From positions 1 through 30,705 of the IMG/VR virus record IMGVR_UViG_3300025601_000077: a stretch of 30,705 nucleotides of DNA; one strand, given 5' to 3'. Within the stretch, counting starts at the first letter, position 1. Each line of letters starts with the position of its first letter. The position numbers and the translations under genes were made by a program. This DNA is from a virus. The notes under the pieces were generated by a model, which worked only from the letters and a program-made list of their open reading frames with translations, had not been told where the DNA came from and searched no databases. Of the stretch, positions 14,944-29,638 are shown one piece after another.

Positions 14944-15594
14944 TTACGACACCTTCCACCACTCGCTGTATGAATCTGAATATCCAGAAGGTGTGCCATT
15001 CTTAACACTTACCCAGTTATTACAATAAGATGTGCAAGTTCCACAGACAGTTGTTGGATTGTACCAACACATAACTCCTGGGCAGCCACACTGTCCAAAA
15101 GATTGTCCATTTGGTGATGGGAATCCAGGAGCGCATGTTCCACAACCGCAACTACCCCAGCCGGGAGCGCAGTTGCATTGATGAGATCCGCAAGCATATG
15201 GATAGTTGACAGATGAGTATGTGTAAGCCAACCTTTCCATAAAGTCAGGGTTTGATAGGTTTGCTCCGATGGCATAAGCAGCGGTAATTGACCACCTAGA
15301 GTTTGCAGAAGAAACAGTATACACTCCACTACCAGTATTTAGCGTAGCCGAGCCTCCTCCGGAAATGTTTGTTGCAGAATAAGAAAGGGCGGGGTCATAG
15401 TTTGTGATAATAAACTGCCCTGTGGATGTGTGGTGATTCATTACTGGGTCTGATGGAGCTCCCGCAAACGTAGATACTCTCCACACACCATTAACTTTTA
15501 CGCTTACAGTAGCAGCTGTTCGCCAGGTTCCGGCAACTTTTACACTGGTGATTGCTGGTGTTCGCCATGCTCCAGAAACTTTTACGCCAGACAT
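14944..15594 (-). CDS. Tail protein with VKV-W repeats and a cysteine-rich C-terminal domain (216 aa)
   Basis: The N-terminus has three copies of a short module: VKVSGAWRT, VKVAGTWRT and VKVNGVWRV, seen in many phage tail and fibre proteins and also at the start of the Hint-domain tail protein at 25635-26600. A beta-rich middle (FIITNYDPALSYSATNISGG) follows. Residues 135-191 then contain 12 cysteines in 57 residues, with Gly and Pro between, ending in an aromatic SYSEWWKVS. Its ATG overlaps the stop of the preceding fibre gene (TAATG). It is probably a virion receptor-binding or fibre-associated protein. The cysteines suggest a metal-bound or disulfide-bonded tip. Confidence 0.7.
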   Translation of the reverse strand: MSGVKVSGAWRTPAITSVKVAGTWRTAATVSVKVNGVWRVSTFAGAPSDPVMNHHTSTGQFIITNYDPALSYSATNISGGGSATLNTGSGVYTVSSANSRWSITAAYAIGANLSNPDFMERLAYTYSSVNYPYACGSHQCNCAPGWGSCGCGTCAPGFPSPNGQSFGQCGCPGVMCWYNPTTVCGTCTSYCNNWVSVKNGTPSGYSDSYSEWWKVS

Positions 15595-16625
15595 TAGACG
15601 TACTTAATCCAAACATCTCCATCTGACCCACCACTGGGATCGATGGTAGAAAGAGTTGCATTCCTTACTCTTGAAGTAAGTTCCTGATTTCCCGACAGTG
15701 TTATCGTTGTTGCCAAATTCACGGTTCCACCATTAATTTCTGGTGATGTAATGGTCTTATTTGTCATTGTTTGAACGCTTACAAGATTTACAGATTCAGA
15801 CTGATTAGAAAAGACCCTTCCATCAGAACTGACATAAGATAGGGCAGTTCCTGCATTATTTTGCCATTCTTGAATGTTTGCGGTTTGTGATACCTGGGAC
15901 TTAACTACAACTCCTATGTGAGATGCGTTTCCAACAATAACATTTACCCCTGTGGTTGTTGATTGAGTCGTGCTTCCCACTGTTATATATCCTGCTAGGT
16001 TTGCAGTTGTTCCCTCTAGATTTCCTGTAAAATTTGCAGTTGTTCCCTCTAGATTTCCTGTAAAATTTGCAGTTGTTCCCTCTATGTTCCCCGTAAAAAC
16101 TCCTCCACTCTTCAATATAAAGTCATTTGAAGAAAAAGAAGAAAACACCTCATCACTGTCTACCCAAACAGAGCCAACTTCTGGTGACAGTGGCGCATCG
16201 TCTTGGTAGTATACAGCAGAAGATTCTATTGCATCAATTGCTGAAGTGACAAAGCTTGTTGTTGCTAGAGACGAGTCATTATCTCCTAGGCTTGGTGTGG
16301 GTGCTGTGGGATTACCCGTAAAAACGGGGGAGTCTATGTTTGACTTTAAATCTAAAGATGCTTGTAGGTCATCTATATTTCCAGCTATATGGCTATGACC
16401 ATCATCTATAACCCCTATGCTTAATATTCCAGTGGTATCGTTATATGATGTACTTATTCCATAATTTGTACCCCCAGTAATCATGGAAGACGATAAGTCC
16501 TGGATTATTTCCGGTAGATCTGTGTCTAGGGATGTGGCCAAGTCCTGAATGTCACTTGCAACGTTTACCGGATCTGTTGATTTTGGATAAGGTAAAGAAT
16601 AGTTTGGTGTTGTTCCAGTGGCCAT
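15594..16625 (-). CDS. Tail fibre / short-fibre protein (343 aa)
   Basis: The opening TPNYSLPYPKSTDPVNVASD is typical of phage fibre or baseplate-linked proteins. It is followed by SPVFTGNPTAPTPSLGDND, the common fibre repeat module. Three tandem NFTGN(L/I)EGTTA units (about residues 175-207) lead to a segment of about 100 residues that is nearly identical to one in the fibre gene at 26619-27413. The C-terminal 31 residues (ending DGDVWIKYV) differ between the two. It is translationally coupled to the cysteine-rich gene downstream. A perfect extended -10 box lies 6 nt before its ATG. It probably forms part of the adsorption apparatus. Confidence 0.8.
   Translation of the reverse strand: MATGTTPNYSLPYPKSTDPVNVASDIQDLATSLDTDLPEIIQDLSSSMITGGTNYGISTSYNDTTGILSIGVIDDGHSHIAGNIDDLQASLDLKSNIDSPVFTGNPTAPTPSLGDNDSSLATTSFVTSAIDAIESSAVYYQDDAPLSPEVGSVWVDSDEVFSSFSSNDFILKSGGVFTGNIEGTTANFTGNLEGTTANFTGNLEGTTANLAGYITVGSTTQSTTTGVNVIVGNASHIGVVVKSQVSQTANIQEWQNNAGTALSYVSSDGRVFSNQSESVNLVSVQTMTNKTITSPEINGGTVNLATTITLSGNQELTSRVRNATLSTIDPSGGSDGDVWIKYV
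15700..16004. repeat. Direct repeat copy A (305 bp, shared with 26734-27038)
   Basis: Bases 15700-15980 are identical to 26734-27014 (281 bp). Identity continues to 16004/27038 with two mismatches. Both copies are in the same orientation and the same reading frame of two fibre genes. They flank 10.7 kb that includes the whole oxygenase cassette. Confidence 0.97.
16003..16100. repeat. 33-bp tandem repeat in the fibre gene (three units)
   Basis: Two units (16003-16035 and 16036-16068) are identical and a third is slightly diverged. They encode NFTGNLEGTTA-type 11-residue repeats in the fibre protein. Such in-frame tandem units change fibre length by slippage or recombination. Confidence 0.9.
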
Positions 16626-16653: not shown

Positions 16654-17433
16654 TTATTCGTTTATTAGAAATCTGCACTGATTGAGGGTGTTGTTTATTA
16701 TTTCCTTAGTATTTTCATACTTCTTGTCACAAATCTTATTGTTTAAAAAGCTCTCTCTGCCCATTTCTATTAAAACGGACAGTCTAAAAAAACCAAAAAC
16801 ATAAAAAAACTTTGGTATGTCATATCCATAAAATTCAATTATCTCTTCCTTTTTTATACTGTTAACCTTCCCTATAATTAAATTATTCCAATATGCCATT
16901 GAAACCCCTATGTCCATCCTGGGGTCCCCCACTCCAGACAGCTCCCAGTCCAGGATTCCTACTATTTTTTTGTTTTTAAATATTAGATTGTCTACCTTCC
17001 AGTCTCCGTGCAGCATAGACCTGGACGCATCTTCTGGGCACATCTTTTCTAACCACAAAATTATATCATCAGAGTTTTCTTTGTTATTTAAAGATATGTG
17101 CTTTTTTTTCCAAAAATCTACAAATTTTTTATTATTCATCCCCTTGTCTTTAATGATTATCTTGTTGTCATGAATTTTTTTTAACATATCAAACATTTCT
17201 AGTGTGGAAAAGGTGCTATCTCCGTGAATTATCTTCATCTTATAAGAATTATCCCTATAGTCATAAACTTCTGGTACCAAGAAAAATCCGTGTAATTTTT
17301 TTTGAACTGAGTACTCCCAGTGCAGTGATGCTGATGATCCAAAATTACTTTTATCTAATGGCTCCCTTAAGATAAAATCATCAAAAAAGGTATTTTTTTT
17401 TGTAACCCCCCCAATTACCCTGTTCGGTAGCAT
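16654..17433 (-). CDS. APH/choline-kinase-like phosphotransferase (259 aa)
   Basis: The catalytic loop of the aminoglycoside phosphotransferase / choline kinase superfamily is clear: MLHGDWKVDNLIF (H142, D144, N149) followed by the metal-binding DWELSGVGDPRMDIG (D162). The N-terminal lobe is short and lacks an obvious glycine-rich loop, though LREPLDKSNFGSS could serve. The substrate is unknown. In surface-glycan and lipid pathways such enzymes phosphorylate sugars, choline or ethanolamine. It overlaps the methyltransferase gene by 19 nt and is the last gene of the AT-rich cassette. An antibiotic-resistance role is unlikely given the context. Confidence 0.75.
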   Translation of the reverse strand: MLPNRVIGGVTKKNTFFDDFILREPLDKSNFGSSASLHWEYSVQKKLHGFFLVPEVYDYRDNSYKMKIIHGDSTFSTLEMFDMLKKIHDNKIIIKDKGMNNKKFVDFWKKKHISLNNKENSDDIILWLEKMCPEDASRSMLHGDWKVDNLIFKNKKIVGILDWELSGVGDPRMDIGVSMAYWNNLIIGKVNSIKKEEIIEFYGYDIPKFFYVFGFFRLSVLIEMGRESFLNNKICDKKYENTKEIINNTLNQCRFLINE

Positions 17434-18083
17434 ACAAATAGATCTCTTCCAAAATTTCCTTCAAACTCCCCAGTGGAGTCGCTATCTTTTCCTAAATACT
17501 CACAAAAATTAAAACTAGTATTTTCTAGGATCAACTCTTGAATTTTTTCTTTATTCCATCCAGACAGGCTATTCTTATACCAGTCTTCATGTTCTTGTCC
17601 CATCTCAAAAAATAAAAAATCTTTTGTGTTTTTTTCTACAGTTTTTATTATTTCTACATAGTCTTTTTTCTTTAAAATATATCTATGAAGCAAGCTCATA
17701 AACAAAACTATATCAAAAGGTCCTTCTCTATCCATCATTTGTAGAAAATCTTCATTATGTATATTTCCTTCAAGATTTGGATACATATTAATGCAAAGAT
17801 CTGTTGCTCTTTTGCTTATTTCCACCCCGTATGAGTTGCTTGAGTGATTGTAAAACTTATTAACAAAGTATCCTGAGTTGCTTCCAATATCTAATATACT
17901 TTTTTCTTTTATGTCTACACCATTTTTTATTAAAAAGTTAAATATTAAACTAAACCTGTCTTCGCAATTTCTAGCTGAAATAACTTCTTCATTATATTCT
18001 AACTCTATTCCTGGATGGTATCTTGTTTCTTTTCCAGGGAATTTTTTAATACTTTCCCCTGTTTTATTTTTTTCTTTTTCCAT
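17415..18083 (-). CDS. SAM-dependent methyltransferase (222 aa)
   Basis: A class I Rossmann methyltransferase. Motif I is SILDIGSNSGYF (residues 63-73), and the acidic residue ending strand 2 is in SYGVEIS (E88). Strand 4 is FDIVLFMSLLHRY (about 122-135), where the LLHR segment resembles the LHH/LEH of small-molecule and glycan methyltransferases rather than the NPPY/DPPY of DNA N-methyltransferases. The target is therefore more likely a small molecule, sugar or protein. The gene has its own promoter box 7 nt before the ATG. It overlaps the kinase gene, suggesting the two act together. Confidence 0.75.
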   Translation of the reverse strand: MEKEKNKTGESIKKFPGKETRYHPGIELEYNEEVISARNCEDRFSLIFNFLIKNGVDIKEKSILDIGSNSGYFVNKFYNHSSNSYGVEISKRATDLCINMYPNLEGNIHNEDFLQMMDREGPFDIVLFMSLLHRYILKKKDYVEIIKTVEKNTKDFLFFEMGQEHEDWYKNSLSGWNKEKIQELILENTSFNFCEYLGKDSDSTGEFEGNFGRDLFVCYRTG

Positions 18084-18090
18084 AATTATT

Positions 18091-18099
18091 ATTGTATCA
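18091..18099 (-). promoter_or_regulatory. Extended -10-like box before the methyltransferase gene
   Basis: TGATACAAT on the minus strand, one base off the consensus, followed by seven bases and the ATG at 18083, with no Shine-Dalgarno site. It lies in the 36-nt gap after the dehydrogenase gene. The region is very AT-rich, so a chance match is more likely than for the other boxes. Confidence 0.45.
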
Positions 18100-18119
18100 T
18101 CAAAACATTTTTAACATCT

Positions 18120-18788
18120 TTAATGTTTTCTACTTAAAATATGGTTTATTTCAATATAATTTATATTAACATGATTGGGTCTTTGAGATATCCAATAAAT
18201 TGTTTCAGCCATATCCTTTGCAGTTATAGCTATATCTCTTTGCCCTCCCTCTACAGTATCAATTGATCCTGGACACAACTCCACAACCTTTATTCCGTAT
18301 TGTGGAAACTCTAACCTCATGGTATCAACAAGACCGCCAATCCCCCTTTTGGCATTTGTGTAGTTTCCTCCAGATGGATAAGCAAATTTTCCACCCAGGG
18401 ATGAAACAAAAACTATTGTTGGATTGTCAGTTTTTTCCATATTTTTAATAAATAGTTTAGAAATGTACATTGGTCCACTTACATTTAGACTATATGCATA
18501 ATTAAAGTTATTTGGATTTTCATCTATTATAAATGTTGGAGACGCACCTCCTCCAGCATTATTTATAAGTAATTCTAAACTTATGTCTTTATATTTAAGA
18601 TAAAAGTTTTTTATTGCATTAAAATCTGTTATATCTAATTGATAGGTTTCTATGTTATTTGATTTAAGAGATTTCATTTTTTCCATGTTTCTAGAAACTG
18701 CTATTACATGATATCCCATTTTTTCTAATAGCTTGCAAGTTTCATATCCAACTCCCTTGCTTGCTCCAGTTACTATTGCTGTTTTCAT
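18120..18788 (-). CDS. Short-chain dehydrogenase/reductase (222 aa)
   Basis: A classical SDR with NAD(P)-binding TGASKGVG (residues 7-14), D52 in LDITD, NNAG (76-79) and a full catalytic tetrad: N102, S130 in VFVSS, Y143 and K147 (NYTNAKRG). VVELCPGSIDT (about 168-178) is the usual segment after the active site. The ending NYIEINHIL recalls YdfG-type 3-hydroxy-acid/serine dehydrogenases. It likely oxidises or reduces a hydroxyl/keto group, which would fit acting on a product of the neighbouring oxygenases, though this is inference. The start is 3 nt after the previous stop. Confidence 0.85.
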   Translation of the reverse strand: MKTAIVTGASKGVGYETCKLLEKMGYHVIAVSRNMEKMKSLKSNNIETYQLDITDFNAIKNFYLKYKDISLELLINNAGGGASPTFIIDENPNNFNYAYSLNVSGPMYISKLFIKNMEKTDNPTIVFVSSLGGKFAYPSGGNYTNAKRGIGGLVDTMRLEFPQYGIKVVELCPGSIDTVEGGQRDIAITAKDMAETIYWISQRPNHVNINYIEINHILSRKH

Positions 18789-18791
18789 AGA

Positions 18792-19421
18792 TTAATAAAT
18801 CCAGTGTTGTGGAACCATATATTTATACCCTGACTTGACTAAATGCGCTGTGTGGTGATATGGTGGAGATGGCGGGAAGACTATTACGCTACCTGCTTTA
18901 GGTTTCACAGCAAAGGTAAATTTTTTATTTTTTTCTGCTTCTGCAAAATCTGCTTCTGGACCTGTACTTTTCAAAACTCCGTCTGGAGATGTAATGGTAA
19001 ATGATATCTCCCCCCCTTCATAATCATCGTTTAAATACATAACAAAAGAAACTTTAAGCCTTTTGTCACCCTCTTGTTGGTCAAAATGTGCCCCCATAAA
19101 AGTTCCAGGCTGATATTTTTTTATGGGATACATCGGGAATAGTTTTGGTTCTTCCAAAATACCTTGAGCTTTTGCATAGTTTCTTGCTACCTCATCAAAA
19201 GCTTTTTGAAGTGTTGAATAAATATAACTACTCTGTTCATCGCTGGCGCTTGACTCAGAAATACTTTTATCTGTTCCGTAAACATAGTGTTTCCCACTGC
19301 AAGCCGCCCACTCCCCCCAAGGAGCTTCGTTGTCACCTTCAATTGCTTTAACGAGTTTTTCAGGTTCTTTAATTACATTTGTGTAGTAGTAGACTTTTTT
19401 TTCTAAAATTTCTAAATTCAT
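18792..19421 (-). CDS. 2OG-Fe(II) oxygenase, P4H-like, paralogue 6 (209 aa)
   Basis: A double-stranded beta-helix dioxygenase of the prolyl-4-hydroxylase type. The Fe ligands are H112 and D114 (MGAHFDQQ), with a distal His in YHHTAHLVKSGYKYM (H190 or H193). K200 stands where the 2-oxoglutarate-binding Arg/Lys usually is. It carries the family phrase VMYLNDDYEGGEISF. Residues 143-172 hold a longer, charged insert before the KPKAGSVIVFP strand, not seen in its neighbours. Its ATG overlaps the previous stop (TAATG). The substrate is unknown. Confidence 0.87.
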   Translation of the reverse strand: MNLEILEKKVYYYTNVIKEPEKLVKAIEGDNEAPWGEWAACSGKHYVYGTDKSISESSASDEQSSYIYSTLQKAFDEVARNYAKAQGILEEPKLFPMYPIKKYQPGTFMGAHFDQQEGDKRLKVSFVMYLNDDYEGGEISFTITSPDGVLKSTGPEADFAEAEKNKKFTFAVKPKAGSVIVFPPSPPYHHTAHLVKSGYKYMVPQHWIY

Positions 19422-20128
19422 TATTCTTCTCCTTCTTTTATCTTGTATATTTTTTCTTTTTTGGATACCCTGTCTTCATTTTTTTTATAAAAATTCTTTT
19501 CTTTAATAAACCCAACAACTACATACCTTATTGGTCCTGATTTAACGGTGTTTACTCCATGGGCGAACTCTTCAGTTCCTGGAAAAATAAGCAATGATCC
19601 TTTTTCTGGCCTTACTTCTAAATCAAAATTTTCAAAAAATAACTCTCCACCGTTATAGTTGTCGTTTAGGTAAAGTATTGCTGCATAACGAATTGATGGA
19701 TCTGTGTGTTGATCAGTGTGGCACTTTAATTCAACCCCCTCCTTCATTCTTTGAAGCGTTGAAAATCCTGACAACTCTAAATCATTATTCTCTTCGTAAA
19801 CCATGTATAGAATTCTTTTATGAATTGTTCTTGATAAGGGATATTCGTGAATAGTTAAATTTTTATCTTCCCACCCTTTAGTTATCTCAAATTTACCTTC
19901 AGCAACTAAATTATCAACATCATCTCTTCCAAATTTTTCCATACAAAATCTTGATAGATTTTTTGTATATTCTATACTCCATTCCTCTTCTGGGGTATTG
20001 TTTATAATTTTTAACAATTGTTCATTTTCCTCTTCAGAGATAAAATTATTTACTAAAAGAATGTCTTTTAAAATTTCTTTAGTCTTAAATCCTTTTTTAG
20101 TTAATGATTCTTTAAGAAAAGCTTCCAT
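19421..20128 (-). CDS. 2OG-Fe(II) oxygenase, P4H-like, paralogue 5 (235 aa)
   Basis: The Fe ligands are H137 and D139 (KCHTDQHTD) with distal H190 (EEFAHGVNTV) and the 2-oxoglutarate Arg R201 (GPIRYVVVGF). The core phrase is ILYLNDNYNGGELFFENFDL, then RPEKGSLLIFPG. A second His two residues after the first motif (H141) is a family variation. The C-terminal 25 residues are Lys/Glu-rich. It is closest in core and tail length to the next two genes upstream, suggesting tandem duplication. The start is one base after the preceding stop. Confidence 0.88.
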   Translation of the reverse strand: MEAFLKESLTKKGFKTKEILKDILLVNNFISEEENEQLLKIINNTPEEEWSIEYTKNLSRFCMEKFGRDDVDNLVAEGKFEITKGWEDKNLTIHEYPLSRTIHKRILYMVYEENNDLELSGFSTLQRMKEGVELKCHTDQHTDPSIRYAAILYLNDNYNGGELFFENFDLEVRPEKGSLLIFPGTEEFAHGVNTVKSGPIRYVVVGFIKEKNFYKKNEDRVSKKEKIYKIKEGEE

Positions 20129-20129
20129 A

Positions 20130-20879
20130 TTATTCTGACCCCACTATTTTGTACTTTTTCCCGCTCTTGTCTATTTTATAACCTTGCTTTAGAATCTTTT
20201 GCCACTCTGCTCTTTCAATTTCTTGTTTTTCTCTTGTTTCTTTCATTTCTTCTTTCCATGAGTCTGTTAGCTCTTGTGAGTAGTCAGACTCTTCTCTGTC
20301 ATCCCAAAATGATCCTATCGTATACCTTAGCCCACTCTCTATTAACGATACCTCATGCATATTCTTAAACCCACCGTCAAAAACTGCAAGCAGCCCCACC
20401 TCTGGCTTAATATCTATGTTTTGTTTTGGAAATTTAAGAATTCCACCCTCAAAGTCATCATTTAAATAAATAAATCCCGCATACCTGCTTCTTGTAAATG
20501 CCCCATAATTTCCTTTAGCATCTGTATTATCTGAATGTATTGTTGCATACGCTCCCTGCTCCCACTTCTGTGCGTGATATCCAATCTTAGACACTACCTT
20601 TGGGTCTAAGTCATGAACTGATGCTATTGCTTCTGTAATTAAATTTTCTATGTCAGAAAAAATTGTTGGGGGTAGGTCAGCATCAATAATTTCTTGATCA
20701 CCTTCTCTTGGAAGAACAGAAGCGTATGACTCATAGAAAGATATAGGAACCCAGGAAATCTTTTCATTTTCTGCTTGTGCATCCAGCACTTGGATAACTT
20801 TAGCACAGTCATCAGGGCTAATAAAATTTTTGTAAACAACAATATCTTTTGTAATTCTTTGCTTATTTTTTAAATTCAT
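20130..20879 (-). CDS. 2OG-Fe(II) oxygenase, P4H-like, paralogue 4 (249 aa)
   Basis: I place the start at 20879, where ATGA overlaps the stop of the preceding gene by 4 nt and an AGGAG site lies 10 nt upstream. A start at 20927 would run 16 codons into that gene. The Fe ligands are H115 and D117 (ATIHSDNTD) and H175 (FKNMHEVS), and the 2-oxoglutarate Arg is R185 (ESGLRYTIGSFW). The core phrase is FIYLNDDFEGGILKFPKQN. A charged helical tail of about 50 residues follows the catalytic domain. The GSFWDDREE segment is typical of phage 2OG oxygenases that act on unknown substrates. Confidence 0.88.
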   Translation of the reverse strand: MNLKNKQRITKDIVVYKNFISPDDCAKVIQVLDAQAENEKISWVPISFYESYASVLPREGDQEIIDADLPPTIFSDIENLITEAIASVHDLDPKVVSKIGYHAQKWEQGAYATIHSDNTDAKGNYGAFTRSRYAGFIYLNDDFEGGILKFPKQNIDIKPEVGLLAVFDGGFKNMHEVSLIESGLRYTIGSFWDDREESDYSQELTDSWKEEMKETREKQEIERAEWQKILKQGYKIDKSGKKYKIVGSE

Positions 20880-21550
20880 GGTTTTTTTTCTCCTGTGTGT
20901 TTTGTGATCCGCCAGAAGAATGGACAAGTGAACCTCAAACCACTTTCAATTTCGGTTACCCCATGAATGTAGTTTTTATCTCCTGGAAAAAAATAGGCAG
21001 CTCCCTTTTTAGGTTTAAATTGAACTCCCTGTAGTGGAAAGTACAACTCTCCTCCTTGATAGTCGTCGTTTAAATAAAATAAACTAGAAAGATCGTAGTT
21101 CGGAAAATCATTCGGCAATCCTGCATCTTTTCCCTCATGTAACTCTTTATCTGCGTGAGGGTTTTGAAATTGTCCGGGAAGCCACTTGACAATTGCTGGT
21201 CCAGTTGGAAGAACTTCAACCTGGTAAAACTCTTCAACTATGGGCCTTAGTCTTTTAAATAATCCGATTATTACTGGTGCAATCTCTTTATTATTTTTTC
21301 TTAGGGTTTCTTTGGTGGCAACCCTATCTTTCCAATAATCTGAGTCATAAACTACCGTTCCATTTTCGTTAACATGGCTTTTTGTAATGTCCCAAATTGT
21401 TAATGACTTTGCAGCTTTTTCTAAAAACTCTATCTCTTCTTGGGTCATAAAATTTTCTAGCTCAACAATCATATCTCTACCATTGCCAAACCAGCCAGAT
21501 GGGGTGAGAGAGGGTCTTCTGACAACCACGGAAGCGTCTATTTTATTCAT
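20876..21550 (-). CDS. 2OG-Fe(II) oxygenase, P4H-like, paralogue 3 (224 aa)
   Basis: A complete catalytic set is visible: H132 and D134 (QNPHADKE), H196 (NYIHGVTEI) and R206 (ESGLRFTCPFFW). The core phrase LFYLNDDYQGGELYFPLQG and KPKKGAAYFFPGDKN complete the fold. About 30 N-terminal residues before the helical domain (starting MNKIDASVVVRRPSLTPSG) look disordered. It is translationally coupled to the next oxygenase by an ATGA overlap and starts 2 nt after the DUF6065-like gene. Confidence 0.88.
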   Translation of the reverse strand: MNKIDASVVVRRPSLTPSGWFGNGRDMIVELENFMTQEEIEFLEKAAKSLTIWDITKSHVNENGTVVYDSDYWKDRVATKETLRKNNKEIAPVIIGLFKRLRPIVEEFYQVEVLPTGPAIVKWLPGQFQNPHADKELHEGKDAGLPNDFPNYDLSSLFYLNDDYQGGELYFPLQGVQFKPKKGAAYFFPGDKNYIHGVTEIESGLRFTCPFFWRITKHTGEKKP

Positions 21551-21552
21551 GA

Positions 21553-22272
21553 TTAAACCATACCACCTTTTCTATGATCTGTAACATAAAGTTTTAAAGT
21601 TTTAACTTCATGGGAACCTAAAGACTCTTGTTTTTCATTTACGGCATCTCTATACCAATCTGTCCACTGTCCAGAAGAATTAATCACTTGTGCTGCTTCT
21701 CCATATTTAATGTTTGACCTTATTCTTGATCTATCTTTATCTTGATACTCAACAATGTTAATTGTACTGTTGTTTAATTTTGTCAAAGAAATTGGGATGA
21801 TTGTTGCAAGAGGAGTGCCTGCTTTTATGGTTACCTCTTTATTTTCTTTTTTTGCTTTAATTGCTAATGGTAGTGGATTATCATAAAAAGAAGTACTTAT
21901 TAAGTTAGATATTGTTTCAAAATTTTGATTAAAGTAATTAACAGGATTTATAGTAAAAATACTTACAGCTTCTTCTGTTCTAAAAACTAAACCAGTATTT
22001 AAACTAACAGATGATTGACCTCTTGAAGAATATGATCCCTCTGGTGCATTTATAATTTTAACATGTTTGTCTGTTTGATCATTTATTCCATCCCAAACAA
22101 AAACAATGTCTTTTGTGCAAGAGATGTCCCACCCTATGATATTTGCCTGTGTTACCGGAAAACATCTATAAGCATGACCCTCTGAGGTTTCATCCATCCA
22201 ATCCCTTTTAATTGACATTGGAGAAACATTCATTAAGCTTCCCCGATTTTTTTCAACTACAATATCAATCAC
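21553..22272 (-). CDS. DUF6065-like protein (239 aa), GTG start
   Basis: Translation starts at a GTG at 22272, overlapping the TAG of the previous gene (TAGTG). The phrases CFPVTQANIIGWDISC, LNTGLVFRTEEAVSIFTINP and TIKAGTPLATIIPI match my memory of the DUF6065 family, a protein of unknown function found in phages and bacteria. The C-terminus ends SHEVKTLKLYVTDHRKGGMV. I see no classical catalytic triad or metal-binding pattern. It is distantly similar to the 22964-23731 protein in the middle segment (fT.P.N then AGTP...Pf/i). The alternation with oxygenase genes suggests joint action. Confidence 0.65.
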   Translation of the reverse strand: MIDIVVEKNRGSLMNVSPMSIKRDWMDETSEGHAYRCFPVTQANIIGWDISCTKDIVFVWDGINDQTDKHVKIINAPEGSYSSRGQSSVSLNTGLVFRTEEAVSIFTINPVNYFNQNFETISNLISTSFYDNPLPLAIKAKKENKEVTIKAGTPLATIIPISLTKLNNSTINIVEYQDKDRSRIRSNIKYGEAAQVINSSGQWTDWYRDAVNEKQESLGSHEVKTLKLYVTDHRKGGMV

Positions 22273-22955
22273 TATTCTTTATCCCATTTTGGATTATACA
22301 TATCTGGCGTATGGTATTTTTTACTATAGTCTAACATTGTCACAATAGAGTATTTTGTTCCAGCATGTACTGGCATAGCCTGATGAGGATACATAAAGTT
22401 AGACGGAAAGATATAAAGATCTTCAGCTTTTGGCTTTATGTTTAAATTTTGCAATCTAAAATACAGCTCTCCGCCTTCATAATCATCATTTATGTACGAC
22501 ACAATGGAAACCGTGCAATTGTAAGAGTATCCATGATCATGATGTTCCATAAAGTGCTGTCCTGGACCATACTTGACAAAGTTAAACGCTTCCCAGTATT
22601 TTAACGTCATGATGTTGTAGTCTCGGCAGTAATCCTCTACGACTGCTGCTTGAGCATCATATACGTCTTGCCATAATTCTTGAAGCTTTATTGAATCTTC
22701 ACTTTTATCTTTCTCAATATCAGTTTTTTTGAATTTAAAGTCTACGCAATCTCTATATTCTGGCATTAATTGTTGGTATCCAACATACGCGGGCTGCCAG
22801 TGGTATCTTTTTCCTTCAGGGGATAGCTCTCTATATCCAGCCACAGATCCCAAGGTATTCTCTAACTTATTAATCAAATCAAATTCTTTTTTGATAACCC
22901 CTCTGTAGCAAATTATTCCATTTCCTAATTCTTCTTTTTCTGTCCATGTAGACAT
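22272..22955 (-). CDS. 2OG-Fe(II) oxygenase, P4H-like, paralogue 2 (227 aa)
   Basis: The ATG at 22955 (MSTWTEKEEL) is the better start because AGGAG lies 6 nt upstream. An ATG at 22988 would overlap the preceding gene. The Fe ligands are H138 and D140 (FMEHHDHG) and H191 (FMYPHQAMP). K201 replaces the usual 2-oxoglutarate Arg. The stretch EAFNFVKYGPGQHF, then NCTVSIVSYINDDYEGGEL, is shared with the 23731-24444 protein, so these two form a separate subfamily from the other four. It overlaps the DUF6065-like gene by one base. Confidence 0.88.
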   Translation of the reverse strand: MSTWTEKEELGNGIICYRGVIKKEFDLINKLENTLGSVAGYRELSPEGKRYHWQPAYVGYQQLMPEYRDCVDFKFKKTDIEKDKSEDSIKLQELWQDVYDAQAAVVEDYCRDYNIMTLKYWEAFNFVKYGPGQHFMEHHDHGYSYNCTVSIVSYINDDYEGGELYFRLQNLNIKPKAEDLYIFPSNFMYPHQAMPVHAGTKYSIVTMLDYSKKYHTPDMYNPKWDKE

Positions 22956-22963
22956 AGCTTCTC

Positions 22964-23731
22964 CTATTTGTATTCTCTTTTTGACCATACTTTACTTTTA
23001 TATACCCCGCCATCGGGCTGTCTATAAAAATTTGCGTTGTTTATCATTTTATCATACATATCCGATTGTTTTAATATTTCTATCTTATGATCCCAATCTT
23101 CTCTTTTAAATGGAAGAACTTGAAGGTATGGGGTTCCTGCTGGTAGTGTTCCTTCCCATCCCTCTGCAATAAAAAATGGAAAACTTCCAAGTAGGTGAAC
23201 TTTGTCAGAATCAACTATTCCTGTTGTATTTAGAAACGGTAGGTCAAACCTATTCATTGGTGTCATGAAAAGCGCACTATATCCTTCTGGCAGCTCAAGA
23301 CCCCAGTCTAAACTCCAAGAAAAGTGATCTCTATAAAATCCTTTAGGATGTTCAAATTGTGGCATTGGTGGTCGCTGTGTGCAAAAATCTCTATACTTTA
23401 ATTCTGTAATACTTACATCTATAGAACCATGGCTATTCTTAAAAAATTTTAAATCACATGGTGTTTTAAAAACATAGCCAGTAGAGAAAGCATCCAGAAT
23501 TGATGGGCAGGCTTTCCATGTGGGTATTTTTCCATAGTCATCTGTTGTTCCTTCTTTTGGAAATGGACAGACTTCTTTTGGAGCATCATAATATTCTCCG
23601 TTTGGCATTTTTGCAAATCTATCTGCTTCCTTATACCAATCTGGAATTTGTCTTTGTGTTGGAACTGGAACAGAAATGCTTTCTTTGTTCAGCCATGGGC
23701 GGAATGATTTAAATGTGGCAACTAGAGACAT
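22964..23731 (-). CDS. Unknown protein, distantly DUF6065-like (255 aa)
   Basis: No enzymatic motif is recognised. Features seen are an N-terminal RQIPDWYKEADRF, CPSILDAFSTGYVFKTPCDL, SLDWGLELPEGYSALFMTPMNRFDLPF and GTLPAGTPYLQVLPFKREDW. Proteins with the PxWYK opening and the AGTPxxQxxPFKR strand occur next to 2OG oxygenases in environmental phage genomes, as far as I recall. The resemblance to the 21553-22272 gene in order of strands suggests an old duplication. It lies between two paralogous oxygenases, with a TAATG overlap to the upstream one and an 8-nt gap to the downstream one. Confidence 0.6.
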   Translation of the reverse strand: MSLVATFKSFRPWLNKESISVPVPTQRQIPDWYKEADRFAKMPNGEYYDAPKEVCPFPKEGTTDDYGKIPTWKACPSILDAFSTGYVFKTPCDLKFFKNSHGSIDVSITELKYRDFCTQRPPMPQFEHPKGFYRDHFSWSLDWGLELPEGYSALFMTPMNRFDLPFLNTTGIVDSDKVHLLGSFPFFIAEGWEGTLPAGTPYLQVLPFKREDWDHKIEILKQSDMYDKMINNANFYRQPDGGVYKSKVWSKREYK

Positions 23732-24444
23732 TATCTGTGTCCTAACTCGTTAATATCTGTCATTACGACAACGCAGTATTTAACTCCTTCTTTCATTGGC
23801 AAAGATGCATGTTCATAAATATAGTTGGATGGACACAAAAGAATATCTCCAGCTTTTGGAGTATGAATATGGTTATCTAATCTTGGAAATTTTATTTCTC
23901 CACCCTCGTAGTCATCATTAATGTATATTACTGCAGATACGGTACAATTATACATTGGTCCGTGGTCGGCATGAATGTTAAAGTGCTTCCCCTCTCCCTC
24001 ATATTTAACAAAATTAAAGGCTTCATAATATGTTACACTAATTCCCCAATATCTTGCATAGTCATCCACACACATCTTTAGCTTTTGATAAATTTCTTCA
24101 TGTAGGTCAATGAGCTCACTATTGTTTTTATCTCTTGTCCCCAGGTTTTCTTTTTTATATTTAAAATCTACGCAGTCTCTAGCTTTTTTAATGGGGGTGG
24201 TTGAATTTGTTACTTGAGCTTCACTCCATCTATATTTACCGTTGTTGGATAGGTTTTTTTCAAGTATTCCGATATACCTTTCTGAATCTTTTTTTGAGAA
24301 TGTGTTCCGATAAACATTTAACCCTAAGGCTAAATTTTCAACTAAAATATCACCTTCTATTGTTTTTGAAACACTTCTATTTGATGCCGTCTCTGACCTA
24401 TCTTTTGTAAACCATTCATTTAAATTCTCGTCATTGTTATGCAT
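23731..24444 (-). CDS. 2OG-Fe(II) oxygenase, P4H-like, paralogue 1 (237 aa)
   Basis: The Fe ligands are H158 and D160 (FNIHADHG) and H212 (YIYEHASLP). K222 (GVKYCVVVM) takes the 2-oxoglutarate-binding place. The shared subfamily phrase is EAFNFVKYEGEGKHF, then NCTVSAVIYINDDYEGGEI. The N-terminal 30 residues are polar and probably flexible. An AAGGAAATA ribosome site precedes the ATG. The closest relative in the window is the gene at 22272-22955, one gene downstream, as expected from duplication with an unrelated gene between. Confidence 0.88.
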   Translation of the reverse strand: MHNNDENLNEWFTKDRSETASNRSVSKTIEGDILVENLALGLNVYRNTFSKKDSERYIGILEKNLSNNGKYRWSEAQVTNSTTPIKKARDCVDFKYKKENLGTRDKNNSELIDLHEEIYQKLKMCVDDYARYWGISVTYYEAFNFVKYEGEGKHFNIHADHGPMYNCTVSAVIYINDDYEGGEIKFPRLDNHIHTPKAGDILLCPSNYIYEHASLPMKEGVKYCVVVMTDINELGHR

Positions 24445-24454
24445 TATTTCCTTT

Positions 24455-25060
24455 TTATACTAAGATTAATGGCATCCACTTTTGTGGATACTGCCCTTCA
24501 ATTTTACTTAATGTACTCACGTTAAATGATATTCCACGTTCTATTCCAGAAAACAAAGTTTTGCTAGCGGCTTCAAAAACAGCAAGAGATCCTTCACCTA
24601 CATCATATTTTACTTCATTTACGGTGATTGAAGCCTTGTTATTTGTTTTTAGAAACCAGTATCCGGAGTAGGAGGGCGAACTGATTCCTCCAGTATCATA
24701 CCAAAAGTCTTCAAGAAACTCTTCTTCATACTCAGAGGATATGTAGTAGTGAGTTTTTTCTGTATTTGTGTCACTCTGTTTAGAAAATTGTTTTATTTCT
24801 TTAGATATTTCATTTAAACAAAGAGCTATTTTTTTGTTGTATATTTGAAAATAGTTAAATGATAGATCATTTACGCAGGACCTTTTATATAAAAAATCTG
24901 CCTTGTTCCCTGATTCAAAAAAATAAATATTTTCTTTATTTTCTTTTATTTTTTCTATGTCCTCTATTACATTAAGTGGATCTATGATAGAAAAACTTAT
25001 TAAGTTATTTTTTCTATTCTTTTCAAAAATAATATTTTCTTTATGAGCATTTTTTCTCAT
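24455..25060 (-). CDS. Degenerate 2OG-oxygenase-like protein without metal ligands (201 aa)
   Basis: The C-terminal half keeps the strand order of the neighbouring oxygenases: SGYWFLKTNNKASITVNEVK, then VGEGSLAVFEAA, then SGIERGISFNVSTL, which matches GGxLxF, PxxGSLLxFP and HGVxxSGxRYxV. However, the HxD pair is not visible and the distal His position reads Phe-Ser. It therefore looks like a catalytically dead paralogue, perhaps a regulatory or substrate-binding partner. The sequence is Lys/Asn-rich and very AT-rich, and much diverged, so the assignment is tentative. It sits directly before the first active oxygenase. Confidence 0.6.
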   Translation of the reverse strand: MRKNAHKENIIFEKNRKNNLISFSIIDPLNVIEDIEKIKENKENIYFFESGNKADFLYKRSCVNDLSFNYFQIYNKKIALCLNEISKEIKQFSKQSDTNTEKTHYYISSEYEEEFLEDFWYDTGGISSPSYSGYWFLKTNNKASITVNEVKYDVGEGSLAVFEAASKTLFSGIERGISFNVSTLSKIEGQYPQKWMPLILV

Positions 25061-25068
25061 TAAGCTTA

Positions 25069-25617
25069 TTACCCTTCTTTTATTTTACCACCAATACGAT
25101 GATTGTACCAGATGTATGGGTATCCAGAGTCTCTAGGCATTTCTTTTTCAGGAAAAAGCATCCTTCCATCATTAAAATATTTATTGTAAACTTGATTTCC
25201 CATATTTAAAGCTTTTTTGTAAATATTTTCAAGAACTTTATTTCTGTCAGCACTCACCTCTGTCATCATTTCAAAGTTATTATATAAAACATCTCTTAAT
25301 ATAAACATTAGCCATTTCCACCAACCCCTTCTTCTATATCTTGGACTTGTGTAGGCTCTAACTCCAAAGTATATACCCAGTTCAGTTTTTAAACCATACA
25401 TAGCATAAGCATCTGGATACCTATGATATGTATACGAAGATTCTATTACGGTCCCTGGTAAAAAATCATCATTTTTATAAAAAGAAACTATACAAGAAAT
25501 TGTTAAGCTATTTTTTATTTTTTGAACATGTACCCACATGTTTTCAAGTTCTTTTGGAAAACAAGAAAGATCTACAAAGTTGTAGTCATTTATTTTTATT
25601 GGAACTACTTTTGTCAT
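25069..25617 (-). CDS. GNAT-like N-acetyltransferase (182 aa)
   Basis: The motif A region, GVRAYTSPRYRRRGWWKWLM, has the (R/Q)xxGxx acetyl-CoA pyrophosphate loop of GNAT enzymes at RRRGWW and is preceded by a beta strand (ELGIYFGVRAY). A C-terminal NKVLENIYKKALNMG could be the motif B helix. Residue identity is weak and the last Gly of the loop is Trp, so activity is uncertain. It is the first gene of the oxygenase cassette, 17 nt after the Hint-domain tail gene. The substrate is unknown. A sugar or protein amine is possible. Confidence 0.6.
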   Translation of the reverse strand: MTKVVPIKINDYNFVDLSCFPKELENMWVHVQKIKNSLTISCIVSFYKNDDFLPGTVIESSYTYHRYPDAYAMYGLKTELGIYFGVRAYTSPRYRRRGWWKWLMFILRDVLYNNFEMMTEVSADRNKVLENIYKKALNMGNQVYNKYFNDGRMLFPEKEMPRDSGYPYIWYNHRIGGKIKEG

Positions 25618-25634
25618 GACTTATCATCATCCTA

Positions 25635-26600
25635 TTATTCAATGCTGGCTGAGTCATGGACTAAAACATTTTCTGTAAAGAACATGTCATATGGCTCTGT
25701 ATTTATTGATACAACTGTGTGCTGTGCTTCTATTGATTCAAGCAAGAATATTTCTACCCAACCTTCTTGATCGTATGACCAGATTAGATCTGTTTCTAAA
25801 ATTTCTTTTGAAATAATAAAAGTTGCTTCACTGTCTCGGCTAACAAGTATCCAGTGAGAATCTGAAAAAACATCATCATTTATGATAACTGCCCAATCAG
25901 ACAATCTTTCAAATATAGAGACTACTGTTGTTTCTGTAAGTTCTATAGTTGGATTTGAATCGTGCCAATTTATTGCTTCCTGATTGGCAAATTGATTTGG
26001 CATGTAAGGGAACCCCTCTATATTTACAGAAATTAAAGTGTCTCCAACTTCAAGATCTTTTGCCGCTACAAGACCCCCTGGAGTCCTAATTAATGTTTCA
26101 AGTCCTACACTCTTTCCAGGCCAGAAGAACGGTGGGAAAAATGGTGGGAAGAATGGGAAGAACGGGAAGAACGGGAAAAATGGAGGAAAGAATGGGAAGA
26201 ATGGTGGGAAGAACGGGAAAAATGGAGGAAAGAATGGGAAGAATGGTGGGAAGAACGGGAAGAACGGTGGGGCAACATATTGGTAGTAATTATAGTTAAC
26301 AAGGCTTCCTGCGTCTAAAGATATTCCTGCAACTGGATTTGTATTAATTATCTGTTGATTTATTGCTGAGTCTCCTGTACTTGTTGCAGTTTGTGTACCA
26401 ACAATTAATCCAAGATTAGTAATTGCTAAATTTGCATTTGTTCGTGTTTGACCAATAACATTTGGAACTAGCGACATTACCCTTTTCCAAACACCTTCAA
26501 CTTTAACAAAAGATTCAGAAACTTCTTTCCAGGAACTAGAAACTTTAACCCAAATGTTATTAGGTCCTTTCCAAGTGCCTCCAACCTTAATACGAGACAT
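25635..26600 (-). CDS. Tail protein: VKV-W repeats, PASTA, Pro/Phe repeat, Hint domain (321 aa)
   Basis: Four regions follow each other. Residues 1-41 have three VKV..W modules (IKVGGTWKG, VKVSSSWKE, VKVEGVWKR) as in the cysteine-rich tail protein. Residues 44-106 are a PASTA domain (VPNVIGQTRTNANLAITNLG, a module that binds peptidoglycan or beta-lactams in kinases and PBPs). Residues 111-159 are almost only Pro and Phe. Residues 164-316 are a Hint (hedgehog/intein) domain: LIRTPGGLVAAKDLEVGDTL, FSDSHWILVS (block B His) and FTENVLVHD before a Ser. The first residue is Ser rather than Cys and the last is Asp rather than Asn, as in some bacterial intein-like domains. It is likely a virion protein. 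Autoprocessing is a hypothesis. Confidence 0.8.
   Translation of the reverse strand: MSRIKVGGTWKGPNNIWVKVSSSWKEVSESFVKVEGVWKRVMSLVPNVIGQTRTNANLAITNLGLIVGTQTATSTGDSAINQQIINTNPVAGISLDAGSLVNYNYYQYVAPPFFPFFPPFFPFFPPFFPFFPPFFPFFPPFFPFFPFFPFFPPFFPPFFWPGKSVGLETLIRTPGGLVAAKDLEVGDTLISVNIEGFPYMPNQFANQEAINWHDSNPTIELTETTVVSIFERLSDWAVIINDDVFSDSHWILVSRDSEATFIISKEILETDLIWSYDQEGWVEIFLLESIEAQHTVVSINTEPYDMFFTENVLVHDSASIE
26109..26280. repeat. Low-complexity tandem repeat encoding the Pro/Phe stretch
   Basis: GGGAAGAA-type units on the plus strand. A 42-bp unit (26182-26223) is repeated almost exactly at 26224-26265, and shorter 9-15 bp units surround it. The minus-strand protein reads as PPFFPFF blocks. The region is prone to slippage, so repeat number may vary between relatives. 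Confidence 0.95.
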
Positions 26601-26618: not shown

Positions 26619-27413
26619 TTATGTATATTTTACCCATGTGTCTCCGTTTTCCCCATCACCAGGTGTTGGGGAAGAAGTTGAAGCAAAAACATTCCTAACC
26701 CTAAAAGAACCAATGGGCTGTTCTCCCGAAAGGGTTATCGTTGTTGCCAAATTCACGGTTCCACCATTAATTTCTGGTGATGTAATGGTCTTATTTGTCA
26801 TTGTTTGAACGCTTACAAGATTTACAGATTCAGACTGATTAGAAAAGACCCTTCCATCAGAACTGACATAAGATAGGGCAGTTCCTGCATTATTTTGCCA
26901 TTCTTGAATGTTTGCGGTTTGTGATACCTGGGACTTAACTACAACTCCTATGTGAGATGCGTTTCCAACAATAACATTTACCCCTGTGGTTGTTGATTGA
27001 GTCGTGCTTCCCACCGTTATGTATCCTGCTAGGTTTGCGTTTCCGCCAACCCCGACTGACCCTACGCTAACCGAAGAGGAGTTTTGCCATTGCTGCAAGG
27101 GTGCAGTTTGTGATACTATTGCCCTGATGGTTATAGGTGTTGTTGCTATAGACTGACTGGTAACTACGTTGGGTGATTCTGTTAACGAAACTTGTTCCAA
27201 GTATGTTGCAGTTAGGCCAATAACAGATGACTCTACTATGGCTACACGATCATTAATACTTCTAAAATTACCCTCGATGCTATCGTTTGGTATTGGCTCT
27301 GTAGTATAATCATCTACCCCGTAATGATATACCCTAAGAGCTTCTTGAATGGAAGCGTCGTCGGAAAACTGAGGTATGCGGCTTTTGTACTGAAATCCTA
27401 CTACTTGAGACAT
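26619..27413 (-). CDS. Tail fibre protein sharing a domain with the 343-aa fibre (264 aa)
   Basis: Residues 1-125 are unique: MSQVVGFQYKSRIPQFSDDA, then a coil-like middle ending in SIATTPITIRAIVSQTAPLQ. From about residue 125 the sequence NLAGYITVGSTTQSTTTG onward is the copy of the fibre domain also found at 15700-16004. The last 30 residues (EQPIGSFRVRNVFAS, ending DTWVKYT) differ. A GGTATAAT-type box formed around the upstream stop codon and an AGGTGA site precede its ATG. It is probably part of the adsorption structure. Confidence 0.8.
   Translation of the reverse strand: MSQVVGFQYKSRIPQFSDDASIQEALRVYHYGVDDYTTEPIPNDSIEGNFRSINDRVAIVESSVIGLTATYLEQVSLTESPNVVTSQSIATTPITIRAIVSQTAPLQQWQNSSSVSVGSVGVGGNANLAGYITVGSTTQSTTTGVNVIVGNASHIGVVVKSQVSQTANIQEWQNNAGTALSYVSSDGRVFSNQSESVNLVSVQTMTNKTITSPEINGGTVNLATTITLSGEQPIGSFRVRNVFASTSSPTPGDGENGDTWVKYT
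26734..27038. repeat. Direct repeat copy B (305 bp, shared with 15700-16004)
   Basis: This is the partner of copy A: 281 bp exactly identical, then two differences (27015 and 27021) up to 27038. Identity breaks sharply at both ends. That indicates a recent duplication or gene conversion rather than slow divergence. Confidence 0.97.
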
Positions 27414-28854: not shown

Positions 28855-28958
28855 CTGTCCACAGTTTGCTGTAAAATCATACCGTAAGGATACCCCGCCA
28901 GCACCGCTGGCTCCACCACTGGGCTAACGAACTCATCAAGTGTCTTATCGTTGTTCAT
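28851..28958 (-). CDS. Tiny coupled gene after the glycine-rich fibre gene (35 aa)
   Basis: The ATG at 28958 shares its first base with the TAA of the preceding gene (TAATG). The product is MNNDKTLDEFVSPVVEPAVL and 15 more residues, ending with its TGA inside the -35 box of the ssb promoter. There is no recognisable domain. It shares the higher GC content of the adjacent fibre gene, so it probably came with it. Small tail-fibre assembly or chaperone proteins occur in this position in other phages, but I cannot assign one. Confidence 0.5.
   Translation of the reverse strand: MNNDKTLDEFVSPVVEPAVLAGYPYGMILQQTVDS
28853..28866. repeat. Inverted repeat at the ssb -35 box
   Basis: AACTG and CAGTT arms with a 4-nt centre overlap the last bases of TTGACA. 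It is a candidate repressor site. It is short and could be chance. Confidence 0.35.
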
Positions 28959-29638
28959 TAGATGATCCTGTAAGTAACAACTATGGCTCCCGATGAGCCC
29001 GGAGCACCTCCACCGGGACCGGATTGACCACCACCGCCTCCACCGTTACCAGCACTACCGAGCGAATATGCGTTTCTCAAAGTTGCTCCAAGCATTGCTG
29101 TCGGCCCAAAACTTCCACCCCCTGTTTGCGTAGAGTACCCTCCAGTTGCACCGTTTCCTGTCGCCCCGTCTCCTGCGCCGCCGCCCTGCGCATAGCCCCC
29201 ATACTCAGTACCACCCCTGCCACCATACCCACCTGTTCTCCCAGCGAAAGTTGTTGAAGTTCCATTAACTCCTGCCCCTGCCCCGTAAGACCCACCTGCA
29301 CCTCCGGTGCCGACCGTCCCGACGTTCGCGCCAATAGGGAGAATAAGCAATCCCTCAAATGCACCGGAGCCACCACCGGTTGCCCCTCCCACACCAATGC
29401 CTGCAATGTATCCCGCGGAGCCCCCGCCTCCGCCACCGAGAACCATCACTGTGAAAAGCAACTGGTTTGAAAGAACCGTTAAAGTCTGGCTCCCGGTAGC
29501 AGTGAAAACGTGACGTTTGTACGTGAAGCCTCCGGAAGCAAATGTGGATACTGTCCCACCCGTAGCCGAGTTGAAATTGATCCTACCTAGCCCAGACATC
29601 GGTGAGAACTGTCCCGTAACGCTACCCCTGCGTGGCAT
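28958..29638 (-). CDS. Glycine-rich fibre-tip protein (226 aa)
   Basis: I place the start at 29638 (MPRRGSVTGQFSP), where TGATG couples it to the previous stop. An ATG at 29674 is also in frame. The sequence FTYKRHVFTATGSQTLTVLS followed by VMVLGGGGGGSAGY, then long GGxGG-rich runs and a final AIVVTYRII, is the layout of glycine-rich fibre domains (Gly_rich_2 type), related to poly-glycine adhesin tips such as T4-like gp38. It would make the receptor-contacting surface. GC content is well above the rest of the window, partly because of Gly codons. Confidence 0.8.
   Translation of the reverse strand: MPRRGSVTGQFSPMSGLGRINFNSATGGTVSTFASGGFTYKRHVFTATGSQTLTVLSNQLLFTVMVLGGGGGGSAGYIAGIGVGGATGGGSGAFEGLLILPIGANVGTVGTGGAGGSYGAGAGVNGTSTTFAGRTGGYGGRGGTEYGGYAQGGGAGDGATGNGATGGYSTQTGGGSFGPTAMLGATLRNAYSLGSAGNGGGGGGQSGPGGGAPGSSGAIVVTYRII

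Follow-up and report, generated by a model that had tools for sequence, protein, structure and literature searches.

The viral record IMGVR_UViG_3300025601_000077, a linear IMG/VR fragment of 30.7 kb from a tailed phage that was analysed over its whole length (hereafter the window), carries on its minus strand, running from position 25617 to 16654, a cassette of six genes for 2-oxoglutarate (2OG) and Fe(II)-dependent oxygenases (OG1–OG6) interleaved with genes for two DUF6065 proteins (D6065A and D6065B). Directly upstream of the cassette lies a gene for a small protein containing an array of short (P)PxF repeats. We consider it probable that these genes form a mobile phage cassette for the post-translational hydroxylation of the (P)PxF repeats of the small virion-associated protein encoded next to it. 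The combination of a hydroxylase-like enzyme set with an adjoining Pro-Phe repeat gene in hundreds of uncultured water phages suggests that these phages remodel their own attachment protein, as animals do with collagen. The evidence comes from the linkage of repeat array and oxygenases, the kinship of the oxygenases with protein prolyl hydroxylases, the fixed order of the operon, and its presence or absence as a block.

The repeat protein and its linkage to the oxygenases

The array of the window (PPFFPFFPPFFPFF..., 49 aa) follows KVxGxW repeats and a PASTA domain. Over 258 distinct arrays the repeat unit is PxF or PPxF, X being mostly F and then Y, H, S or R. This array is kept while the flanking domains of the protein change: among relatives, FN3 or Gly-rich domains are frequent at the N-terminus, and tails vary between short, Cys-rich and Hint-like forms. 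Codons within the array vary synonymously, and it is therefore the amino-acid pattern that is kept. The unit does not have the glycine at each third residue that is typical of collagen, and PPG occurs only within variant arrays of the type PPGFF[AS]. Array genes follow fibre genes and encode proteins with FN3, PASTA or Gly-rich domains, neighbours and domains that only indirectly suggest a location of the array protein on the virion tail or fibre.

Linkage between arrays and oxygenases was examined by five sampling routes. When loci were selected by D6065B, the array preceded OG6 in all 50 loci with enough upstream DNA. Conversely, selection by DNA encoding PFFPPFFPFF found oxygenase or DUF6065 genes within 5 kb in 65 of the 68 loci for which 4 kb or more of downstream DNA was available. 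The third route was independent of both array and oxygenases and took 35 records longer than 20 kb that share the capsid gene; repeated PxFPPxF occurred in seven of these and at least two oxygenases in six, the array being present in 6/6 cassette-bearing records vs 1/29 others (Fisher p=4e-6). In that seventh array record, G021, the array lies about 0.5 kb from the contig end. Selection by a divergent OG4 gave arrays in 51/51 loci, of PxF type in 46; the five loci with variant arrays apparently represent one lineage, two of them having been read (L480 and L483, both PPGFF[AS]) and three assigned by kinship. Finally, selection by the OG4 of a contig of marine origin whose tail genes are T4-like gave arrays in 37 of 39 loci (upstream in 27, nearby on the other strand in 10). 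The linkage holds even where the genes are rearranged and the tail modules are of different kinds. No array was found in eight cultured or single-cell phages (seven aquatic phages with 1–13 PF13640 matches each, and halophage HF2) or in 80 capsid loci totalling 478 kb. A relaxed repeat pattern gave 35 matches in genome contigs, most of them without oxygenase or DUF6065 homologues, and most look like chance or unrelated occurrences; the genome-contig loci with long phage-like (P)PxF arrays (L304, L312/L323 and L325) have such homologues nearby.

Several variants of the array protein deserve mention. A PPGFF[AS] array containing the collagen-type PPG replaces PPFF at the same place of the cassette in L480:3349-4707 and L483:3762-5120. 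A second array protein, of the type (PPHF)n and equipped with a Gly-rich domain, is encoded beside a GT8 glycosyltransferase in L285:16588-18815 and L286:5658-7949. The Hint/intein-like end of some array proteins (e.g., L289:16114-17763 and that of the window), recognised by motif only, suggests self-cleavage or covalent attachment after the repeat. Cys-rich tails are found in several array proteins of relatives, and window gene 14944-15594 also encodes KVxGxW repeats followed by a Cys-rich C-terminus. Three marine contigs from Verrucomicrobiales and Gammaproteobacteria metagenome-assembled genomes (L337, L338 and L339) contain phage-type fibre genes, a gene for a PASTA and P[FYH]F array protein and then a redoxin-like gene, which in L337 and L339 is followed by OG4, OG5, DUF6065 and further oxygenases; these are probably phage contigs binned with their hosts.

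The oxygenase families

OG1–OG6 all match PF13640 above the curated cut-off and thus belong to the 2OG-Fe(II) oxygenase superfamily. The HxD...H motif and the distal Arg/Lys show essentially no variation among the 62–123 distinct orthologues of each of seven families (69–123 for OG1–OG6), the seventh being OG7, a further true oxygenase of about 295 aa that occurs in many relatives and is absent from the window. The original prediction, made from the sequence of the window, of six oxygenases retaining these residues is borne out. It had also proposed a seventh, ligand-less relative, encoded by ORF201, which was rejected: as a single sequence aligned with hhalign to the profiles of OG5 and OG6, the two families compared, ORF201 gave a probability below 1%, and it has no meaningful Pfam or PHROG match.

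The median ratio of nonsynonymous to synonymous substitution rates (dN/dS) is 0.03–0.08 in every family, and the families are under purifying selection. The oxygenase paralogues of the window are only 24–45% identical among themselves and 44–79% identical to orthologues chosen as divergent; the OG families are old enzymes that have been maintained separately. Searched against the PDB, the profiles of OG2–OG6 find prolyl 4-hydroxylases (P4H) and prolyl 3-hydroxylase 1 (P3H1) first or near first, and those of OG5 and OG6 also reach procollagen lysyl hydroxylases. The top structural matches of an OG6 model (predicted local distance difference test, pLDDT, 86.8) are PHD2 with a HIF peptide, the algal CrP4H with (Ser-Pro)5, the chlorella virus enzyme vCPH and a P4H bound to EF-Tu, all of which have proline in proteins as target. 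OG2–OG6 by profile, and OG6 also by the fold of its model, resemble protein prolyl hydroxylases of the P4H/P3H type, which is their predicted activity.

The DUF6065 proteins

The two interleaved DUF6065-like genes that had been noticed originally are confirmed by family matches (Table 1). The D6065B model (pLDDT 91.7) has a dUTPase-like chain fold, with Z-scores up to 10.4 and a best Foldseek E-value of 2.9e-3. The catalytic motifs of dUTPases are incomplete: motif 3 is present in 46 of 52 D6065B/C sequences and in none of 49 D6065A sequences, and among the same 52 sequences motif 2 (RS[SG]) was found in two and motif 5 in one. DUF6065 may be a repurposed, perhaps trimeric, binding partner. 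It was rejected as the defining partner of the system, to which it is not specific because it also occurs alone, without arrays or oxygenases, in HF2-type haloviruses and in array-less capsid relatives. The lone DUF6065-like gene of the haloarchaeal HF1/HF2-type viruses (HF2, AF222060.2, 48119-49003) lies near the ribonucleotide reductase (RNR) gene and the tail module, with neither a PF13640 oxygenase nor an array.

Operon conservation and mobility

Scanning viral contigs with D6065B identified 446 relatives, of which the best 80 loci were fetched. The order OG6-D6065B-OG5-D6065A-OG4-[OG7]-OG3-OG2-OG1-[SDR or third DUF6065] is found in all 80, except where a contig end cuts the locus short or an individual gene has been lost, and a class II RNR usually comes next after the operon. 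The number of oxygenases, six in the window, is about six to eleven in other phages. A GT8 glycosyltransferase lies beside a second array protein in two capsid relatives and a TauD-type oxygenase in the cassette of one of them. Among the products of marine cassettes are redoxin-like and NAD-binding proteins (assigned by eye). The environmental gene-order search suggested with the original prediction thus returned a fixed order that includes the DUF6065 genes, and neither single, randomly placed oxygenases nor mostly collapsed active sites were seen in the relatives.

Within the oxygenase-DUF6065 core, intergenic gaps range from about -25 to +3 bp, and GC content is 30–37% inside the cassette vs 38–44% for most flanking DNA, so that both the tight coupling and the AT-rich composition described originally hold. 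The SDR, methyltransferase and kinase genes were correctly identified. The SDR gene has its equivalent in many relatives; the methyltransferase and kinase genes are peripheral and, contrary to what had been proposed, are not members of the conserved unit. ORF201 and the gene for a 182-aa protein likewise fall outside the core conserved in the 80 relatives. The 182-aa protein is without matches in Pfam, PHROG or cultured phages; a weak match occurs in relative L048, between the array gene and OG6.

The cassette and the array are gained or lost as a block. Phage G001 and the window share 99.0% identity over 12.06 kb and 94% over the kilobase that follows, yet the RNR and SSB genes of G001 are separated by about 160 bp vs 14.4 kb in the window, where this interval holds the fibres, the array gene and the cassette. 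G012 has fibre genes in the interval from SSB to RNR, and neither an array nor oxygenases. The setting between two fibre genes was rightly recognised: gene 15594-16625 matches tail-fibre PHROGs and shares with gene 26619-27413 a direct repeat of 300 nt (98% identity), the two copies of which bracket the array gene and the cassette and form a plausible recombination site. Fixed order in 80 relatives, intact active sites and presence or absence as a block relative to G001 strongly support the view, already put forward in the original prediction, of one inherited unit performing a multi-step modification. The span first delimited ended one gene short, as the repeat protein belongs to the unit.

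Two further features of the window concern the surroundings of this interval. The RNR gene (11141-14047) contains an intein-like insertion at 12053-13007 that splits the alignment with G001, which is without it. Upstream of SSB, gene 28958-29674 encodes a Gly-rich protein and has locally high GC content (up to about 56%).

Table 1. Positions of cassette genes, array and direct repeats in the window, with the matches and residues on which assignments are based (E-values unless stated otherwise).
Feature	Position	Strand	Observations
Direct repeat, copy 1	15684..15983		300 nt, 98%; within fibre gene 15594-16625
APH-type kinase	16654..17433	-	PF01636 3.5e-15; accessory, outside conserved core
Methyltransferase	17415..18083	-	Accessory, outside conserved core
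SDR oxidoreductase	18120..18788	-	adh_short 1.1e-37; at equivalent place in many relatives
OG1, 2OG-Fe(II) oxygenase	18792..19421	-	PF13640 1e-10; H112, D114, H190 or H193, K200; P4H weak, 0.09
OG2, P3H-like 2OG-Fe(II) oxygenase	19421..20128	-	PF13640; H137, D139, H190, R201; P3H1 5.8e-4
OG3, P3H/P4H-like 2OG-Fe(II) oxygenase	20130..20879	-	PF13640; H116, D118, H176, R186; P3H1 2.1e-6, P4H 1.5e-5
OG4, P3H/P4H-like 2OG-Fe(II) oxygenase	20876..21550	-	PF13640; H132, D134, H196, R206; P3H1 2.8e-6, P4H 9e-5
D6065A, DUF6065 protein	21553..22272	-	PF19541 9e-28
OG5, P4H-like 2OG-Fe(II) oxygenase	22272..22988	-	PF13640; H149, D151, H202, K212; P4H 2.8e-4, lysyl hydroxylases weaker
D6065B, DUF6065-type protein	22964..23731	-	phrog_7084 1e-32; model pLDDT 91.7; dUTPases, Z up to 10.4
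OG6, P4H-like 2OG-Fe(II) oxygenase	23731..24444	-	PF13640; H158, D160, H212, K222; P4H 2.3e-6
ORF201	24455..25060	-	Kinship with oxygenases not supported
182-aa protein	25069..25617	-	GNAT-like by motif only
Array protein	25635..26600	-	KVxGxW repeats, PASTA 1.5e-4, (P)PxF array, Hint-like C-terminus (motif only); proposed substrate
PPFF/PFF array DNA	26124..26270	-	Encodes 49 residues; synonymous codon variation inside
Direct repeat, copy 2	26718..27017		Within fibre gene 26619-27413

Proposed mechanism and alternatives

In the proposed model, genes for a fixed complement of prolyl hydroxylase-like oxygenases and for two DUF6065 proteins come after a tail-fibre gene and the array gene. The diverged enzyme groups, i.e., the P4H-like OG5/OG6 and the P3H/P4H-like OG2/OG3/OG4, would most likely act on different positions of one repeat, in the way that collagen is modified by P4H and P3H. 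Array chains would be hydroxylated at several prolines before or during tail assembly, possibly with DUF6065 as a scaffold or substrate-presenting partner, and the hydroxyls could be processed further, in some phages, by a glycosyltransferase or by other oxidoreductases. The outcome would be a stiff or adhesive repeat, serving adhesion or the stiffening of a rod. We infer that the array is the substrate, that proline rather than Phe, Tyr or His is the target, and that the array protein resides in the tail tip or fibre. Of the three targets offered originally (a virion protein, a host surface glycan or a small molecule), the virion protein modified by prolyl hydroxylation is clearly favoured because the repeat protein, which had gone unnoticed, adjoins the enzymes in every lineage examined and the enzymes resemble P3H/P4H.

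Several points weigh against this model. Both the hydroxylation and the virion location of the array protein are deduced from sequences and structural models. Many loci within each sample are related, so that the fractions given above do not count independent events, and the linkage draws its weight from the fact that different lineages, gene orders and sampling routes all agree. Three array loci (L089, L103 and L130) are without the operon nearby, and L383 is without an array within the stretch examined. In addition, OG1 matches P4H only weakly (E 0.09), Phe is as abundant as Pro in the array, which leaves room for aromatic chemistry, and the dUTPase-like fold of DUF6065 is not explained by protein hydroxylation.

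Alternative explanations differ in what the enzymes modify. Array and oxygenases could travel together as a shared receptor-binding module for host attachment, the enzymes targeting a small molecule, the large fibre protein, or a glycan or lipid of the host surface; the fibre genes, always close and varying with the cassette, and the GT8 glycosyltransferase of some cassettes fit this idea. However, the array stays constant while fibres and array-protein domains vary, and the oxygenase profiles lead to protein prolyl hydroxylases and not to glycan enzymes, and we regard this explanation as unlikely. If the array is the substrate, the chemistry could instead concern mainly Phe, Tyr, His or Ser (the variable X or the fixed F), or consist of crosslinking or desaturation. 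Six to eleven enzymes do seem more than proline hydroxylation needs, and the way the unit is defined makes F invariant, while X varies (F, Y, H, S, R). Nevertheless, the closest relatives of solved structure have proline as their target or, in weaker matches of OG5 and OG6, lysine, which makes such a chemistry improbable.

The dUTPase-like fold of D6065B is the reason to take seriously a hypermodification of nucleotides or DNA, in which DUF6065 and TET/JBP-like oxygenases would modify a pyrimidine. Weak TET matches of the OG2 and OG4 profiles (0.25–0.47), weak Tet_JBP matches and the proximity of cassette genes to RNR and SSB are in line with this possibility. Yet the prolyl hydroxylase matches are far stronger than those to TET, dUTPase motifs 2 and 5 are lacking, as is motif 3 in D6065A, DUF6065 also occurs without oxygenases, and the linkage to the array would be left unexplained; we consider hypermodification very improbable. 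Least credible of all is an auxiliary metabolic role in which the oxygenases mainly draw down 2OG to reprogramme the host, as has been proposed for cyanophage 2OG oxygenases (PMC3037559), for it explains neither the distinct conserved orthologous groups nor the DUF6065 partners nor the array linkage.

Going beyond the prolyl hydroxylation model for the window, the cassette could represent a widespread, mobile and previously undescribed phage system for the hydroxylation, and in certain phages also the glycosylation, of a dedicated (P)PxF virion repeat distinct from collagen, a phage counterpart of collagen and plant extensin, with a catalytically altered dUTPase-like protein as substrate-presenting partner. 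This broader claim is tentative, and we give it somewhat less than half of our confidence. One conserved oxygenase family gains a candidate substrate that is concrete, testable and encoded by the adjoining gene. If the proposal is true, phages modify the protein by which they attach with several hydroxylases, much as in collagen. This would alter the reading of virion proteomes, of host recognition and of so-called auxiliary metabolic genes, and would make available a compact prolyl hydroxylase set together with the repeat polymer that matches it.

Comparison with known systems

Literature searches, which did not extend to subscription papers and preprints, found no reports on DUF6065, on hydroxyproline and phage tails, or on proline-rich repeats and phages; for collagen-like proteins and prolyl 4-hydroxylase in phages nothing relevant was found, a lone lake-virus match being an algal-virus gene. 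Proposed roles of phage 2OG oxygenases are in DNA repair or 2OG signalling (PMC3037559, PMC9146016). T4-like cyanophages share with the cassette the oxygenase superfamily, the Pfam family and the abundance of copies, e.g., 24 2OG-Fe(II) oxygenase genes reported in S-SCSM1 (PMC9602691). Unlike in the cassette, these genes are scattered, and no (P)PxF array was found in the eight phage records checked. BE-type Streptomyces phages resemble the phage of the window in their major capsid protein (about 42% identical), a likeness that suggests an actinobacterial host.

Large eukaryotic viruses encode collagen hydroxylases, such as chlorella virus vCPH and the lysyl hydroxylase of giant viruses, and in these viruses the hydroxylase serves a collagen-like protein. 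Because virus-encoded collagen hydroxylases are known from them, the system described here is not categorically new. The vCPH enzyme is among the structural matches of OG6; the difference is that these are single enzymes of eukaryotic viruses with collagen as substrate. The hydroxyproline-rich glycoproteins of plants and algae and their P4H offer another parallel in the proline repeat, its hydroxylation and possible glycosylation, GT8 being present in two related phages and the Chlamydomonas P4H with (Ser-Pro)5 (PDB 3GZE) being among the OG6 matches, although repeat sequence, organism and gene organisation differ. Collagen biosynthesis itself relies on 2OG-Fe(II) enzymes of differing position specificity, the collagen P4H and P3H and the procollagen lysyl hydroxylases (C-P4H, P3H1 and LH3), that act on one proline-rich repeat protein. 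The phage set resembles it in profile similarity and in one cassette lineage with PPG-containing PPGFF[AS] arrays, and differs from it in that the phage repeat is normally (P)PxF without Gly at each third residue and in that the enzymes, more numerous, smaller and stand-alone, are encoded in a bacteriophage operon together with DUF6065 partners.

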